A stretch of DNA of 64,000 nucleotides, taken from Caldimonas thermodepolymerans (GTDB lineage Bacteria > Pseudomonadota > Gammaproteobacteria > Burkholderiales > Burkholderiaceae_C). Of the stretch, positions 1-54,198 are shown piece by piece. How positions within the stretch are numbered: position 1 is the first letter of the stretch; every line of letters starts with the position of its first letter. Location of the stretch: positions 1,984,001-2,048,000 of the forward strand of contig NZ_CP064338.1 of assembly GCF_015476235.1 (NCBI RefSeq). Direction: 5' to 3'. The notes under the pieces were generated by a model. It was not told the DNA's origin and ran no database searches. It was given only the letters and a program-made list of their open reading frames with translations. Made by a program: the position numbers and the translations under genes.

Positions 1-2142
1 GATCGGGGTGCGCTCGCCCATGCTCATGGCCTCGCCGCGGAAGCCGGCATAGTCGGCCAGCGTCACGGCGCAGTCGGCCACCGGCACCTGCCAGGGGCCG
101 ACCATCTGGTCGCGGTGGCTGAGGCCGCCGACCGTGCGGTCGCCGATCGTGATCAGGAACCGCTTGCTCGCCACGGTCGGGTGGCGCAGCACGTCGAAGG
201 CCACCTGCTCCAGCGGCACGCCGGTCAGGTCGATCGGGCTGCCGTGGCGCTGCACGCGCTCGACCACGCGGTGCATCTTGGGCGGCTTGCCGAGCAGCAC
301 GTCCATCGGCATGTCGATGGCGCGCTCGCCGCCCGGGCCGTCTTCCAGGATCAGCTGGCGGTCGTCGCGCACCACGCCGACCACCGCGAACGGGCAGCGC
401 TCGCGCTCGCACATGGCCTGGAACAGCGGCAGGCTCTCGGGCGCGATCGCCAGCACGTAGCGCTCCTGGCTCTCGTTGCACCAGATTTCCTTCGGCGACA
501 GGCCGGTTTCCTCCAGCGGCACGCGGCGCAGGTCGAAGGTCGCGCCCTTGCCGACGCCGTCGACCAGTTCCGGGAAGGCGTTGGAGATCCCGCCCGCGCC
601 GACGTCGTGGATGGCCAGGATGGGGTTCTTGTCGCCCAGCTGCCAGCAGTGGTTGATGACCTCCTGTGCGCGGCGCTGGATCTCGGGGTTGCCGCGCTGC
701 ACCGAGTCGAAGTCCAGCTCGGCGGCGTTGACGCCGGCGGCCATCGAGCTGGCCGCGCCGCCGCCCATGCCGATGCGCATGCCCGGGCCGCCCAGCTGGA
801 TCAGCAGCGTGCCGGCGCCGAACGGCAGCTTGTGCGTCAGCCCGGCCGGGATGCTGCCCACGCCGCCGGCGATCATGATCGGCTTGTGGTAGCCGCGGCG
901 CACGCCGTCGACGGTCTGCTCGTAGACGCGGAAGTAGCCGCCCAGGTTGGGCCGGCCGAACTCGTTGTTGAAGGCCGCCCCGCCCAGCGGGCCCTCGATC
1001 ATGATCTGCAGCGGGCTGGCGATGTGGTCGGGCTTGCCGTAGGCGTCGCGCTCCCACGGCTCGCTCGTGCCGGGCAGCTCGAGGTTGGAGACCGAGAAGC
1101 CGGTCAGCCCCGCCTTGGGCTTCGCGCCGCGGCCCGTCGCGCCCTCGTCGCGGATCTCGCCGCCAGCGCCGGTCGAGGCGCCCGGGTGCGGGGAGATCGC
1201 GGTCGGGTGGTTGTGCGTCTCCACCTTCATCAGCACGTGCGCGACCTCCTGGCGCGCCTTGTACAGCGGGGCATTGGTGTAGCCGTCCGGCACCCAGCGC
1301 TCGATCGGGCCGCCTTCCATCACCGCGGCGTTGTCCGCGTAGGCCACCACGGTGTACTGGGGCGCCAGCTGGTGGGTGTTGCGGATCATCTGGAACATCG
1401 AGCGCTCCTGCTCGACGCCGTCGATCGTGAACTTCGCGTTGAAGATCTTGTGCCGGCAGTGCTCGCTGTTGGCCTGGGCGAACATCATCAGCTCGACGTC
1501 GCTGGGGTTGCGCTTCAGCTCGGTGAAGGCCTGCACCAGGTAGTCGATCTCGTCGTCCGACAGCGCCAGGCCGAAGTCGCGGTTGGCCGCCTCCAGCGCG
1601 GCGCGCCCGCGGCCCAGCACGTCCACGTGCTCCATCGGCTTGCCGGGCTGCTCGTCGAACAGGTGGGCGGCCGCGGCACGCTCCAGCACCACGCTTTCGG
1701 TCATGCGGTCGTGCAGCGCCGCCGCGAGCGCCAGCAGCTCGCCTTCGGCCAGCGGCTTGACGCCGCCCAGCAGGCCGGCCTTGAGCTCCAGCCGGTACTC
1801 GGTGACGCGCTCGACACGGCGGATCGCCAGGCCGCAGTTGTGGGCGATGTCGGTGGCCTTCGAGGCCCAGGGCGAGACGGTGCCGAAGCGCGGCGTGACG
1901 ACGATCAGCGCACCGTCGGTCGGGCCGGCATAGAGGTCGCCGTAGGTCAGCAGCGCGGCCAGCTTGTCGTGCTCGGCCGGTGCCAGCGCATGGTCGGCCC
2001 ACACCCAGTGCACGTGGCGCGCATGCACGCCCGTCACGCGCGGGTTGATCGCCTGCAGGGTGCGCAGCAGCGCCTGGGCACGGAAAGCGGAAAGGGCATT
2101 GCCGCCCTCGAAATGGATGAGGTGTTTGGCTGTCGCTGTCAC
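1..2142 (-). CDS. purL: Phosphoribosylformylglycinamidine synthase, 5' part (3' end outside window)
   Basis: Large PurL enzyme of de novo purine synthesis, converting FGAR to FGAM with ATP and glutamine in the cytoplasm. About 714 codons are inside the window. The start is taken as GTG at 2142, which gives [20 protein letters not shown], the usual betaproteobacterial N terminus; no ATG precedes the conserved region. Visible landmarks are the PurS-like N-terminal domain, the conserved motif [12 protein letters not shown] near residue 230, [20 protein letters not shown] of the AIRS-like ATP-binding domain, and [16 protein letters not shown]. The second half with the glutaminase triad lies beyond base 1, so completeness cannot be judged. 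It is transcribed away from map. Identity is secure from several family motifs. Confidence 0.96.
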
Positions 2143-2313
2143 GCTGGGGCTCGGGATGGGGGTGGGCAGACGCGCGGGGCCAGGCCCGCGGAATCCGTGA
2201 TTTTAAGCGTTCCCCCTTGTCCGGCGCCCCGCCCGCCCCGGCCTGCGCGCGGCCAGCGCCGCAGCAGGCCGGTTGCCGCCATGGTGAAGGCCGAATTGCG
2301 ATAATGCGGCGTC
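2143..2313. promoter_or_regulatory. Divergent purL/map intergenic region
   Basis: 171 bp between two divergent starts, so both promoters should lie here. On the minus strand TAAAAT at 2200-2205 is a possible purL -10 box. On the plus strand GATAAT at 2300-2305 lies only 8 nt before the map ATG. No convincing -35 box pairs with either. There is no Shine-Dalgarno motif directly before map. Confidence 0.35.
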
Positions 2314-3144
2314 ATGAGCATCTCCATCAAGACCGGCGAGCAGATCGACGGCATGCGCCTGGCCGGGCGACTGGCCTCCGAAGTCCTGGATTACCTGACG
2401 CCGCACGTCAAGGCCGGCGTCACGACCGAGGAGCTGGACCGCCTGGCCCACGACTACATCGTCAACGTCCAGGGCGCCATCCCGGCCCCGCTGAACTACG
2501 CGCCCCCGGGCTACAAGCCCTACCCGAAGTCGATCTGCACGTCGATCAACCACGTCATCTGCCACGGCATCCCCAACGAGCGGCCGCTGAAGAATGGCGA
2601 CATCCTGAACATCGACGTCACCATCATCAAGAACGGCTGGCACGGCGACACCAGCCGCATGTTCATCATCGGCGAAGGGTCGATCCAGGCGAAGCGCCTG
2701 TGCCAGATCACCTACGAGGCGATGTGGCGCGGCATCCTGAAGGTCAAGCCGGGCGCGCGCCTGGGCGACATCGGCCACACCATCCAGGTGTTCGCCGAGA
2801 ACGCCGGCTACTCGGTGGTGCGCGAGTTCTGCGGCCACGGCATCGGCACCAAGTTCCACGAGGAGCCGCAGGTGCTGCACTACGGCCGCCCCGGCACGAT
2901 GGAGGAACTCCAGCCGGGCATGACCTTCACGATCGAGCCGATGATCAACGCCGGCCGCCGCGAGATCCGCGAGATGCCCGACGGCTGGACCATCGTTACC
3001 AAGGACCGCTCGCTGTCCGCCCAGTGGGAGCACACCGTGCTCGTCACCGAGACGGGCTTCGAGGTGCTGACGATGTCGGCCGGGTACCCGCCGCTGCCGG
3101 ACTTCGTCAAGGAAGCCCTGGCGGCCAACCCCCCTGCCTCCTGA
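2314..3144 (+). CDS. map: Methionine aminopeptidase, type I
   Basis: Removes the N-terminal methionine from nascent proteins after deformylation. The 276-aa product matches the family length. The five metal ligands are visible as D101 (NIDVT), D112 (GDTSRMF), H175 (CGHGIG), E208 (TIEPM) and E239 (WEHTVL), with the catalytic-pocket His at H84 (ICHGIP). It is followed after 9 bp by glnD, so the two are probably co-transcribed. The ATG has no clear Shine-Dalgarno sequence and sits just downstream of a GATAAT element, so a very short or absent leader is possible. The partner deformylase gene def is also in the window, on the other strand. Confidence 0.97.
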   Translation: MSISIKTGEQIDGMRLAGRLASEVLDYLTPHVKAGVTTEELDRLAHDYIVNVQGAIPAPLNYAPPGYKPYPKSICTSINHVICHGIPNERPLKNGDILNIDVTIIKNGWHGDTSRMFIIGEGSIQAKRLCQITYEAMWRGILKVKPGARLGDIGHTIQVFAENAGYSVVREFCGHGIGTKFHEEPQVLHYGRPGTMEELQPGMTFTIEPMINAGRREIREMPDGWTIVTKDRSLSAQWEHTVLVTETGFEVLTMSAGYPPLPDFVKEALAANPPAS

Positions 3145-23032: not shown

Positions 23033-23048
23033 CTGGATAAAAATACAG
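23033..23048. promoter_or_regulatory. LexA-binding (SOS) box 1
   Basis: CTGG-ATAAAAAT-ACAG, one mismatch from the CTGT-N8-ACAG consensus. It lies between divergent asparaginase and lexA starts, 82 bp before the lexA GTG. Confidence 0.8.
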
Positions 23049-23051
23049 TTA

Positions 23052-23067
23052 CTGGATGCCTGCACAG
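23052..23067. promoter_or_regulatory. LexA-binding (SOS) box 2
   Basis: CTGG-ATGCCTGC-ACAG inside the longer palindrome TACTG...CAGTA, one mismatch from consensus. Its start is 19 bp from that of box 1. Tandem boxes before lexA are typical of autoregulation. Confidence 0.8.
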
Positions 23068-23129: not shown

Positions 23130-23804
23130 GTGGACCATCAACCCAAACTCACCGCCCGCCAGCAACAGGTGCTGGACCTGATCAAGAGTGCCATCGAGCG
23201 CACCGGCGCCCCGCCGACGCGGGCAGAGATCGCCGCCGAGCTCGGCTTCCGTTCGGCCAACGCGGCGGAGGAGCACCTGCAGGCCCTGGCGCGCAAGGGC
23301 GTGATCGAGCTGGTCGGCGGCACGTCGCGCGGCATCCGGCTCAAGTCTGACACACTGCGCTCGCTCAACGAATCGCGCAGCCGGCAGTTCAGCCTGCCCC
23401 TGCCCGGGCTGGCGCAGCTGGCCCTGCCGCTGGTCGGCCGGGTCGCGGCCGGCAGCCCCATCCTGGCCCAGGAACACATCGACCAGACCTACCACGTCGA
23501 GGCCGGCCTGTTCGCGAGCCGCCCCGACTACCTGCTGCGCGTGCGCGGCATGAGCATGCGCGACGCCGGCATCCTCGACGGCGACCTGCTCGCGGTGCAG
23601 CGTGCCAAGGAAGCCCGCAACGGCCAGATCGTCGTCGCCCGGCTGGGCGAGGAGGTCACCGTCAAGCGCTTCCGCCGCAGCCGCGGCAGCATCGAACTGG
23701 TCGCCGAGAACCCCGACTACAAGACCATCGTCGTCGAGCCCGGCCAGGATTTCGAGCTCGAAGGCATTGCCGTCGGGCTGATCCGCAACTCGCTGCTGAT
23801 GTGA
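23130..23804 (+). CDS. lexA: SOS response transcriptional repressor LexA
   Basis: Repressor of DNA-damage genes, inactivated by RecA-stimulated self-cleavage. A GTG start at 23130, with GAGG six bases upstream, gives 224 aa beginning [23 protein letters not shown] 23124 is an alternative. The winged-helix domain covers residues 1-70. The cleavage site is A107-G108 (VAAGSP). The catalytic dyad is S142 (RGMSMRDAG) and K179 (VTVKRF), with the usual 37-residue spacing. Two tandem SOS boxes lie upstream. The next gene starts 4 bp after the stop. Confidence 0.97.
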
Positions 23805-23808
23805 CGCC

Positions 23809-24291
23809 ATGAAGCACCTCGCCGCGGCCCTGCCGGCCACCGTCCTGTCCGCTGCGCCCTCCCGGGGACCGTCCCTGCGCACCACGTCGCAAGGACCGGC
23901 CACCCCGACGCGCTCGGGCGGCAAGCCGGCCAAGGCGCGGCACCGCAGTGCATGCCTGGCAGACGACGCGGCGCTCGAGTCGCTGCCCAACATCGGCCCG
24001 GCGCTGGCGCAGGGCCTGCGATTGATCGGCATCGAGACCCCGCGCGACCTGATCGGCCGCGACGCCTTCGTGCTCTACCAGGAGCTGTGCGCGCGCACCG
24101 GCGTTCGCCACGACCCGTGCGTACTGGACAGCTTCATGGCTGCGGTGGACTTCATGCGCGGCGCGCCGGCCGCGCCGTGGTGGCACTACACCGCGCAGCG
24201 CAAGCTGCTCTACGGGCAGGCCCAGGGGGAAGCATTGGCCCCGGGCGGTCCGGACGGCACGCCGCGCAACGGCGGGACCGGCCGCGGCTAG
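23809..24291 (+). CDS. Helix-hairpin-helix protein, Cdd1 (pathogenicity locus / mitomycin-resistance) family
   Basis: 160-aa protein of poorly known function. The first 48 residues are a basic, Ser/Pro-rich tail, possibly disordered. The core is a helix-hairpin-helix-like segment LESLPNIGPALAQGLRLIGI, then DLIGRDAFVLYQELCARTG, RHDPCVLDSFMAAVDFMRG and PWWHYTAQRK, which I recognise as the Cdd1 domain. HhH motifs usually bind DNA non-specifically. It begins 4 bp after lexA, so it is almost certainly SOS-regulated with it. The glycine-rich last 30 residues look unstructured. Assignment to the family is from recall, and its molecular role is not established. Confidence 0.75.
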   Translation: MKHLAAALPATVLSAAPSRGPSLRTTSQGPATPTRSGGKPAKARHRSACLADDAALESLPNIGPALAQGLRLIGIETPRDLIGRDAFVLYQELCARTGVRHDPCVLDSFMAAVDFMRGAPAAPWWHYTAQRKLLYGQAQGEALAPGGPDGTPRNGGTGRG

Positions 24292-24438
24292 GCGCACTTT
24301 TTCCAGCTGCCCTGTGGGTGGCGGGCGTTCATGGGCAGCCGCCCATGCATCCCCGCGGGGCAGTCGTCAGGGCACAGGCCCTGTCATCGACCAATCCTGC
24401 CGAACGTCATGGTGGTGTTTTGATTTTCGGAGACGGAC
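24292..24438. repeat. Structured intergenic region with three consecutive hairpins
   Basis: 147 bp between the Cdd1-like gene and imuA. Three perfect palindromic hairpins follow each other: CATGGGC-AGCC-GCCCATG (24330-24347), CCCCGCGGGG (24351-24360) and CAGGGC-ACAG-GCCCTG (24368-24383). None is followed by a T run. After them comes an AT-richer stretch and the ribosome-binding site GGAGA at 24429-24433. Possible roles are a structured leader, a REP-like element or a protein site; none is proven. Confidence 0.5.
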
Positions 24439-25407
24439 ATGGCCCATGCACCCTGTGCACCTGAACACGACGCGTTTCGACTTCCCCCGGTGATGTCGTT
24501 CCGGCCGGCGGCACTCCCGCACCGCCCCTGGCGCCCGGCGCCTGCCACCTGCCTGGCGGCCCGGGACCCTGCCGCGCGCGATGCTGCCAACGATGCCGCG
24601 CCGACGGCCGGCTCGCCATGGTGGAAGCGCTGGAGCCAGGCGCTGGCGTGGCTGGAGCCGGCCGGGCCGGCGCCCAGCACCTGGACCAGCGGCTTTCCGA
24701 TGCTCGATGCCGCCCTGCCCGGTGGCGGCTGGCCGTGCCACGGCCTCGTGGAGGTGCTGGCCCCGCGGCCCGGCCACCCCGAGTTCGCCCTGCTCGCCCC
24801 CGCGCTGGCCGGTGCAGCGGCGCGCCAGCAGCGCTTCGGCGCCATCGGCGCACCCGTGGGTGGCGTGGGCCTGGCCGCGATCGGCGGTTTCGAATCGACG
24901 GGCCTGCCGGCCTGGGGCGACGCCGAACCCGGCGACGCTGCCACCGGTACGCCGACGGCCTCCGTGCTGCAGGACGCGCTGCACTGGCTGCAACAAGGAT
25001 CGGAAGGCGTGCTCGTGGTGTGGCTGCCGGAGATGGGCATGACGCAGCTGCGTGCACTCAAGCGCGCCGCGCGCCGGCGCCGCACCCTGGTCTTCGTCGT
25101 GCGTCCGTGGGTCGCGAACTGGGACGACAGCGAGGCCGACCTGCGCCTGTGCCTGATCGCCGGCAAGGGCGGCCAATGGGAGGTGCGGGTGCACCGCCAG
25201 GCAGCGCAGGCCGCGCCGACCGTGCGCGTGCCGGCGCTGGGGCCGGCGCCGGCACGCCACCTGCGCGTCGTGCGCGATCCGCAGGACCGACGCCGCGCCC
25301 TGCTGAGCGGCTCGTTCGAGCAGGTCTGCGCCGAGCTGGACCGCCTCGCCGAGATCGAGCGCCAGACCGAGTCGACCCAGCCGACCTGGCGCCGCATCGA
25401 CGCCTGA
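24439..25407 (+). CDS. imuA: Translesion-synthesis associated protein, ImuA-like (no imuB/dnaE2 partner nearby)
   Basis: RecA-related accessory protein normally encoded with ImuB and DnaE2, where it supports damage-induced mutagenesis. 322 aa. The diagnostic segment is TSGFPMLDAALPGGGWPCHG near residues 82-101, followed by LVEVLAPRPGHPEFALLAPA. As in other ImuA proteins there is no intact Walker A motif. The C-terminal half is basic and contains GVLVVWLPEMGMTQLRALKR. GGAGA lies six bases before ATG 24439; ATG 24493 is an alternative. The downstream neighbour is an unrelated transporter on the opposite strand, so imuB and dnaE2 are absent here. Confidence 0.82.
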   Translation: MAHAPCAPEHDAFRLPPVMSFRPAALPHRPWRPAPATCLAARDPAARDAANDAAPTAGSPWWKRWSQALAWLEPAGPAPSTWTSGFPMLDAALPGGGWPCHGLVEVLAPRPGHPEFALLAPALAGAAARQQRFGAIGAPVGGVGLAAIGGFESTGLPAWGDAEPGDAATGTPTASVLQDALHWLQQGSEGVLVVWLPEMGMTQLRALKRAARRRRTLVFVVRPWVANWDDSEADLRLCLIAGKGGQWEVRVHRQAAQAAPTVRVPALGPAPARHLRVVRDPQDRRRALLSGSFEQVCAELDRLAEIERQTESTQPTWRRIDA

Positions 25408-53883: not shown

Positions 53884-53930
53884 CGTCTTCCCGGCCGCAA
53901 CGGCGCGCAAGCCTCTTACAATCCATCCCG

Positions 53931-54145
53931 TTGGTGCTCGCGCCGCCGTCCGGTGGCGCGGTTAAACGGGAAGCAGGGAGAAGCGCGGCACCGCCCGCCT
54001 TCCAACCTGCGCTGCCCCCGCAACGGTAAGCAGACGGCACGGCCTTGCGCCGTGCCCGCCCTGGGTCCACGACCACTGGCTGGCGCCTGCCGGCTGGGAA
54101 GGTCCTCCGGGGTCGTTCTGCCAGCCCGGATACCGGCCAACAGGG
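53931..54145 (+). ncRNA. Cobalamin riboswitch
   Basis: Classical B12 aptamer in the leader of btuB. Hallmarks in order: TTGGTGCTCGCGCC at the 5' side, GGTTAAACGGGAAGCAGG, the core GCTGCCCCCGCAACGGTAAG (54011-54030), CCACTGG, CTGGGAAGG, and the B12 box CAGCCCGGATACCGGCC (54122-54138). The spacing is normal. It should lower expression of btuB and downstream genes when adenosylcobalamin is plentiful. Confidence 0.93.
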
Positions 54146-54198
54146 GGACGCGCGCCCCGGTGCGCGTCCATGGGGTTCGAGCCTGCGGGGAAGCAGGC
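54146..54198 (+). promoter_or_regulatory. Possible expression platform: two hairpins after the riboswitch
   Basis: GGACGCGC pairs with GCGCGTCC (54146-54169, 8-nt loop), then GCCTGC-GGGGAA-GCAGGC (54181-54198). Neither has a T run, so classical termination is not evident. Confidence 0.45.

Follow-up and report, generated by a model that had tools for sequence, protein, structure and literature searches.

What does an ImuA-like gene do behind lexA, with neither imuB nor dnaE2 beside it? Such a gene lies in the stretch of DNA analysed here (the window: 64,000 nt of Caldimonas thermodepolymerans contig NZ_CP064338.1, assembly GCF_015476235.1, positions 1,984,001-2,048,000), whose host belongs to the family Burkholderiaceae_C of the order Burkholderiales and has a genome of one contig (3.86 Mb, 100% complete). 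Two things at this locus stand out: an undescribed folded RNA and an undescribed module gene after lexA, both present in the host genome and in many of its relatives. Together, they may form a second layer of SOS control.

The lexA locus and its ImuA-like gene

As an earlier note on this DNA had read it, the locus carries, in this order on the forward strand, lexA, a Cdd1-family helix-hairpin-helix (HhH) gene and an ImuA-like gene (hereafter imuA2), followed on the opposite strand by a transporter gene, found here to be that of an ABC transporter. The gene of the SOS repressor, lexA (23130-23804, +; 224 aa, GTG start), passed the curated cut-off of TIGR00498 (223 vs 110.95 bits), and the Cdd1-family gene, which starts 4 nt after it (23809-24291, +; 160 aa), passed that of PF11731 (103.3 vs 25.5 bits); imuA2 (24439-25407, +; 322 aa) matched NF033429 under its curated cut-off (84.7 vs 150 bits). 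Two predicted LexA boxes of the pattern CTGN10CAG, CTGGATAAAAATACAG (23033-23048, +) and CTGGATGCCTGCACAG (23052-23067, +), precede lexA, the first gene of the row, as expected of a LexA-regulated unit. The unit is thus linked to lexA, as the note had held, and it is also uncharacterised, as suggested there. A search with PADLOC gave no match to a defence system for the three proteins searched. An asparaginase gene (PF00710; 22077-23021, -) diverges from lexA; with 12 nt between its start and the first LexA box, it could be under LexA control too.

ImuA2 comprises a RecA/ImuA-like core and a C-terminal module. When its predicted model (mean pLDDT 71.8, core blocks mostly >85) was searched with Foldseek, the best matches were RecA proteins (E 3.7e-8, TM 0.45), in line with a core of the RecA type. 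At the place of the RecA Walker A motif, residues 107-115 read LAPRPGHPE, without GK[ST], and ATPase activity of ImuA2 is therefore predicted to be unlikely. The dN/dS ratio of imuA2 was 0.20-0.31 in five pairs, and that of cdd1 was 0.18-0.39 in three. A contig scan with ImuA2 returned at least 80 loci, those listed matching it at 26-41% identity.

Having seen no imuB or dnaE2 beside this gene, the earlier note took its product for an orphan ImuA. A search of the host genome overturned this reading: ~1 Mb from the lexA locus, at 3.020-3.025 Mb (3,019,790-3,025,117), lies an imuA-imuB-dnaE2 row with another imuA and a LexA box of its own (CTGTATAAACATACAG, 8 nt before that imuA). The cassette imuA (275 aa) scores above the cut-off of NF033429 (190.3 vs 150 bits), and dnaE2 (1058 aa) reaches 1481 bits against the error-prone polymerase model. 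The label imuB is weaker than these two, since the gene in question (453 aa) was called by its place and by homology to same-place genes in relatives, gave no NCBIfam or PDB match, only one to IMS_C at E 0.18, and was missed by a PF00817 search of the host genome, which found one, different gene. Among five imuB-position genes from other families, three passed the PF00817 cut-off, one fell just below it and one gave no match.

The products of imuA2 and the cassette imuA are 36% identical over 165 columns. In an unrooted tree of 39 rows, ImuA2 and seven relatives form a clade of their own, separate from the 31 remaining rows (support 100/100); a placement of ImuA2 as sister of the lexA-linked ImuAs was unsupported in this tree and was dropped. 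Judged by its sequence, ImuA2 is a second, deeply diverged ImuA paralogue in the host genome, and it probably works outside the usual cassette, as the note had also supposed.

Two findings had been named in the note as speaking, together, against its view of the locus: a separate cassette with its own imuA, and a cluster not conserved in related species. The former exists, as described above; the latter does not hold, as the cluster is conserved in the host genus. Among the nine species of the genus that were sampled (host included), imuA2 follows lexA in eight, and the ninth (G007) has neither imuA2 nor Cdd1 after lexA.

A C-terminal module shared with small lexA-linked proteins

The C-terminal module of ImuA2 is encoded at 25231-25386 (+), as placed by hhalign with the module alignment A4, and these ~45 residues are common to ImuA2 and to small lexA-linked proteins (hhalign probability 97.3, E 2e-11, 45 columns). 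A first sample of the family outside the host genus, in genomes with lexA (n=26), held a short gene of 95-159 codons in 18 cases, Cdd1 without a short gene in four and neither in four. The 18 small proteins share a C-terminal stretch with the consensus GRMVISGRMADVCAELDRLAxxEA, and no convincing match to them was found in Pfam, NCBIfam or, by profile, PDB (best E 0.16, 0.073 and 4.3, respectively). In this short form, the protein consists of an N-terminal segment, a variable linker and the module. No description of this small lexA-linked protein was found in the open-access PMC literature, subscription papers lying mostly outside that search; one report names hypA and hypB, both hypothetical, as possible targets of LexA in beta-proteobacteria (PMC3323433).

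In an even sample of 240 genomes of the host family, the module profile A4 matched 130, and among the matches listed, the module lies no more than 1.5 kb after lexA and on the same strand in 101 of the 103 genomes with both places known. The module loci that we read number 132, namely those of 127 of the 130 module genomes plus five congeners; G254, G151 and G115 were left out, and in the first two of these the module is on a different contig from lexA (the G151 match, at E 7e-5, may be chance). All 132 loci contain lexA, preceded by at least one LexA box in 131 and by exactly two in 120. None of 105 further module proteins, with start sites guessed, is longer than 220 residues, and the 17 listed matches to the ImuA2 profile are all confined to its last part, so that the ImuA core is seen only in the host genus. 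The gene after lexA is thus widespread, given the 130 of 240 family genomes with the module, and what sets the host genus apart is the ImuA core alone.

This distribution also bears on the HhH protein, which had been put forward as an obvious candidate partner of ImuA, along with a survey of the co-occurrence of Cdd1, lexA and imuA. Within the genus, such co-occurrence was found in part: Cdd1 lies between lexA and imuA2 in five of the eight imuA2 species and is absent in the other three. Across the family it was not, as Cdd1 mostly occurs there without the module. Cdd1 matches were obtained in 65 of the 240 host-family genomes, and of the 44 genomes with both places known, 32 have Cdd1 no more than 400 nt downstream of lexA. 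At 161 lexA places (those among the matches listed, plus 11 from a separate scan; a lexA match was present in 219 genomes), we counted both Cdd1 and the module in four, the module alone in 97, Cdd1 alone in 28 and neither in 32, a near-exclusivity with a Fisher P of 8e-11 when genomes are treated as independent of kinship. Because the HhH gene is missing in three of the eight imuA2 species and is nearly exclusive with the module, it is not the obvious partner; going by gene content, Cdd1 is an optional or alternative neighbour of lexA, and not a dedicated partner of ImuA2. A weak Cdd1-like HhH match (19.9 bits, under the cut-off) was also noted in genome G000, at G000:C1:2766545-2766673, inside a 786-codon open frame that holds the only PF00817 match of that genome, and this stretch is probably the HhH of that Y-family polymerase. 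Cdd1-like stretches with 32-34% identity to the window Cdd1 protein occur in three unannotated Listeria phage records.

Two other accounts of ImuA2 were weighed. It could be a leftover of an ancestral lexA-imuA-imuB-dnaE2 cassette, the small proteins being shrunken remnants with a minor role and the RNA described below an old leader. Gene order lends this some credit: at lexA loci in other families of the order, imuA comes next in 10 of 16 (14 genomes), with imuB and dnaE2 as well in eight of those ten, and imuA2 occupies the matching place. However, imuA2 is under purifying selection, the family-wide module lies outside the region of the ImuA model (the profile match, 108-181, ends before the module), neither the module nor the RNA was found at the lexA-imuA cassettes of other families, and the unrooted tree sets ImuA2 apart from lexA-linked ImuAs; we consider a leftover unlikely. 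Alternatively, ImuA2 could be an accessory or alternative ImuA that partners with ImuB and DnaE2 from the main cassette, with the module as an extra docking piece. Its ImuA-like core and the intact cassette with a LexA box in the host genome are consistent with such a role, yet the cassette already has its own imuA above the cut-off, and the module occurs without an ImuA core in the rest of the family, which argues that the basic task of the module is independent of the core. An accessory ImuA therefore appears rather doubtful to us.

A pseudoknotted RNA before the module gene

The window contains, in the interval from the Cdd1 gene to imuA2, an RNA pseudoknot element (24307-24403, +), matched by our model R1 at E 6.2e-6 and with 35 bits, a low score for this model. 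With limits read by eye, the element consists of the first strand of helix P1 (24307-24318, pairing with 24352-24363), a bulge, TGGCGGGC (24319-24326), the hairpin P2 (24327-24350), the second P1 strand, a variable linker and CAATCCTGCC, which precedes the ribosome-binding site. The GGCGGG of the bulge (24320-24325) can pair with CCTGCC (24396-24401), and this pairing makes the pseudoknot.

Covariation was counted on two sets: 45 sequences picked by a sequence pattern (A5; 45 of 76 genomes used, elements >92 bases left out) and 86 model matches (A7), the latter from 87 sources that had been selected as likely to hold the element. In both sets, covariation exceeded that of shuffled and slid controls, as expected of a structured RNA; since the A5 pattern fixes much of both pseudoknot arms, part of the perfect pairing in A5 reflects the way in which its sequences were picked. 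Among the 86 model matches (85 distinct), 86.8% of the pairing cells were paired; shuffling gave 75.3%, and sliding the partners 38-50%. Changes on both sides were seen in 16 pairs, and the covariation score was 0.333 vs 0.145, values reached by none of 500 shuffles. By helix, the fraction of cells paired in the 85 distinct sequences was 90.9% for P1, 72.2% for P2 and 100% for the pseudoknot, whose arms vary as AGCGGG/CCTGCT, GGTGGG/CCTGCT and GGCAGG/CCTGCC.

When the window copy was folded with a program that does not handle pseudoknots, the nested minimum-energy structure kept P2 and lost P1, whose strands instead paired with the bulge and CCTGCC; the nested minimum-energy folds of three copies were only moderately better than those of shuffles (z -2.3, -2.0 and -1.7). 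The nested fold and the P1/pseudoknot fold are mutually exclusive, and a switch would also fit. Rfam 15 yielded no relevant match to the element in the window or in 15 element-bearing loci, and no lexA-linked RNA of such a kind was found in the open-access PMC literature, a search that mostly left aside subscription papers. A cobalamin riboswitch (RF00174, 58.8 bits) lies elsewhere in the window, at 53915-54155.

R1 matched in 86 of the 132 module loci (20 of 26, 64 of 100 at E <=1e-4, and 2 of 6) and in all eight imuA2 loci. At the thresholds applied, the remaining 46 module loci lacked such an RNA; the module gene can thus be present without it. Where lexA stands without the module, at 23 loci (Cdd1 in 11, neither in 12), no match was obtained, and there was none, at E 0.01, at any of nine lexA-imuA loci of other families, where the best match had E 0.11. 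Of 80 named loci holding ordinary imuA genes, none matched R1 better than E 0.15. In a search of 60 whole genomes, 16 had an R1 match at E <=1e-3, 15 of them at lexA; strong matches numbered one per genome and one per locus, strictly oriented before the module gene.

The one match found elsewhere, in G022, follows a pair of LexA boxes, with its start 9 nt past the second, and stands before a gene for a UvrD-type helicase (PF00580, 202 bits); the module gene of this genome lies 24 nt after lexA without an RNA between them. At this locus (L350, G022:C69:3079-6160; 616-3082), the helicase gene and that of an SOS response associated peptidase (SRAP) diverge from the two LexA boxes, the SRAP gene starting on the far side of the boxes from the RNA. 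A search of plasmids with the G022 copy gave no match. Although a single case, this copy gives the strongest hint of an RNA that is part of SOS control.

Several other candidates were set aside. No AT-rich LexA box was seen near the weaker R1 matches in G000 and G028 (E 0.001 to 0.48), and we attribute these to chance, along with matches in four of 24 other-family genomes (E 0.058-0.086). Eleven viral contigs with an 18-base pattern misfit R1, with two partial matches at E 0.027 and 0.086. Tandem repeats after lexA in two relatives proved to be tRNA genes.

A possible RNA layer of SOS control and its known counterparts

The SOS response is usually drawn as a transcriptional regulon of LexA. 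What was observed at the loci described here is a gene order, LexA boxes, a conserved module, coding constraint and a covarying pseudoknot just before the effector start codon. On the strength of these sequence features, we propose a LexA-controlled unit of the form lexA - (cdd1) - RNA leader - SOS effector gene, a reading that we hold to be evenly poised between right and wrong. Upon DNA damage, the unit would be transcribed from the lexA promoter, and the folded RNA would gate translation of the effector, which would then be made later, or only under strong damage; alternatively, the RNA might provide a site at which ribosomes load, a role that the tisB pseudoknot has in E. coli. As for the effector, it would be an SOS checkpoint or adaptor protein, with the C-terminal module as its constant working part. 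In the host genus, a RecA/SulA/ImuA-type core without the Walker A lysine lies between the N-terminal part and the module, most likely serving as a protein-binding scaffold.

In other bacteria, genes linked to lexA have roles in division or replication checkpoints. With this background, and because the module is the conserved part of the protein, a division or replication checkpoint is our first guess at the task of the effector, and a tentative one. The second guess, an accessory of the mutasome, comes from the ImuA-type core that the protein carries in the host genus, and is doubtful. To our knowledge, no SOS division inhibitor has been described in bacteria of the host family.

Taken further, the pseudoknot could represent a new class of cis-regulatory RNA for SOS transcripts of the host family, one that times a family of module effectors unknown until now, of which one genus acquired a RecA/ImuA-type core; we offer this broader claim as a conjecture, somewhat more apt to fail than to hold. 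If true, SOS control would have two layers, repression by LexA and gating by RNA. With such a covarying pseudoknot leader, linked to the lexA unit in many members of a large beta-proteobacterial family, the SOS circuit would gain a layer made of RNA. The small lexA-linked module protein stands out as a candidate effector of the DNA-damage response in the host family.

Compared with the mutasome cassette imuA-imuB-dnaE2 (also found as lexA-imuA-imuB-dnaE2), ImuA2 is alike in its RecA-type, ImuA-like core and in its place after lexA, and differs in scoring under the ImuA cut-off, in forming its own clade, in its extra C-terminal module and in having no imuB or dnaE2 adjoining. Another comparison is with SulA, the SOS division inhibitor, whose gene is linked to lexA in Pseudomonas. 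ImuA2 shares with it the place after lexA and, in four of the eight ImuA2 proteins, weak profile matches, but its scores against the SulA models NF007892 (17.3 bits, cut-off 162) and TIGR00623 (15.9 bits, cut-off 150) are so far under the cut-offs that membership of the SulA family was rejected. The cassette ImuA of the host, too, reaches 20.9 bits with SulA models, so this weak match does not set ImuA2 apart. As to the Cdd1 family (PF11731), the window gene is a full profile match, and differs in its place beside lexA.

For the RNA, one comparison is with the beta-proteobacterial repeat element (BRE), 75-91 bp long, which three Bordetella species are reported to carry downstream of lexA and related genomes at other places, in up to 29 copies per genome, genomes with one copy being reported too (PMC3110155). 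BREs are GC-rich and found in related genera, and the element resembles them in length, GC content and place downstream of lexA; it could accordingly be a BRE copy, a mobile repeat with no part in regulation at lexA. As described there, however, BREs are repeated within genomes and stand in tandem at lexA, whereas, across the 60 genomes searched, strong matches to the element come one to a genome. By this comparison of descriptions, we think a BRE copy quite improbable. The tisB pseudoknot of E. coli, on which translation of that damage-induced mRNA depends (PMC7708055), is alike in standing before the coding region of a damage-induced gene, damage induction being presumed in our case. By description, the two differ in that the tisB pseudoknot serves a distant standby site, on a toxin mRNA with an antisense RNA.
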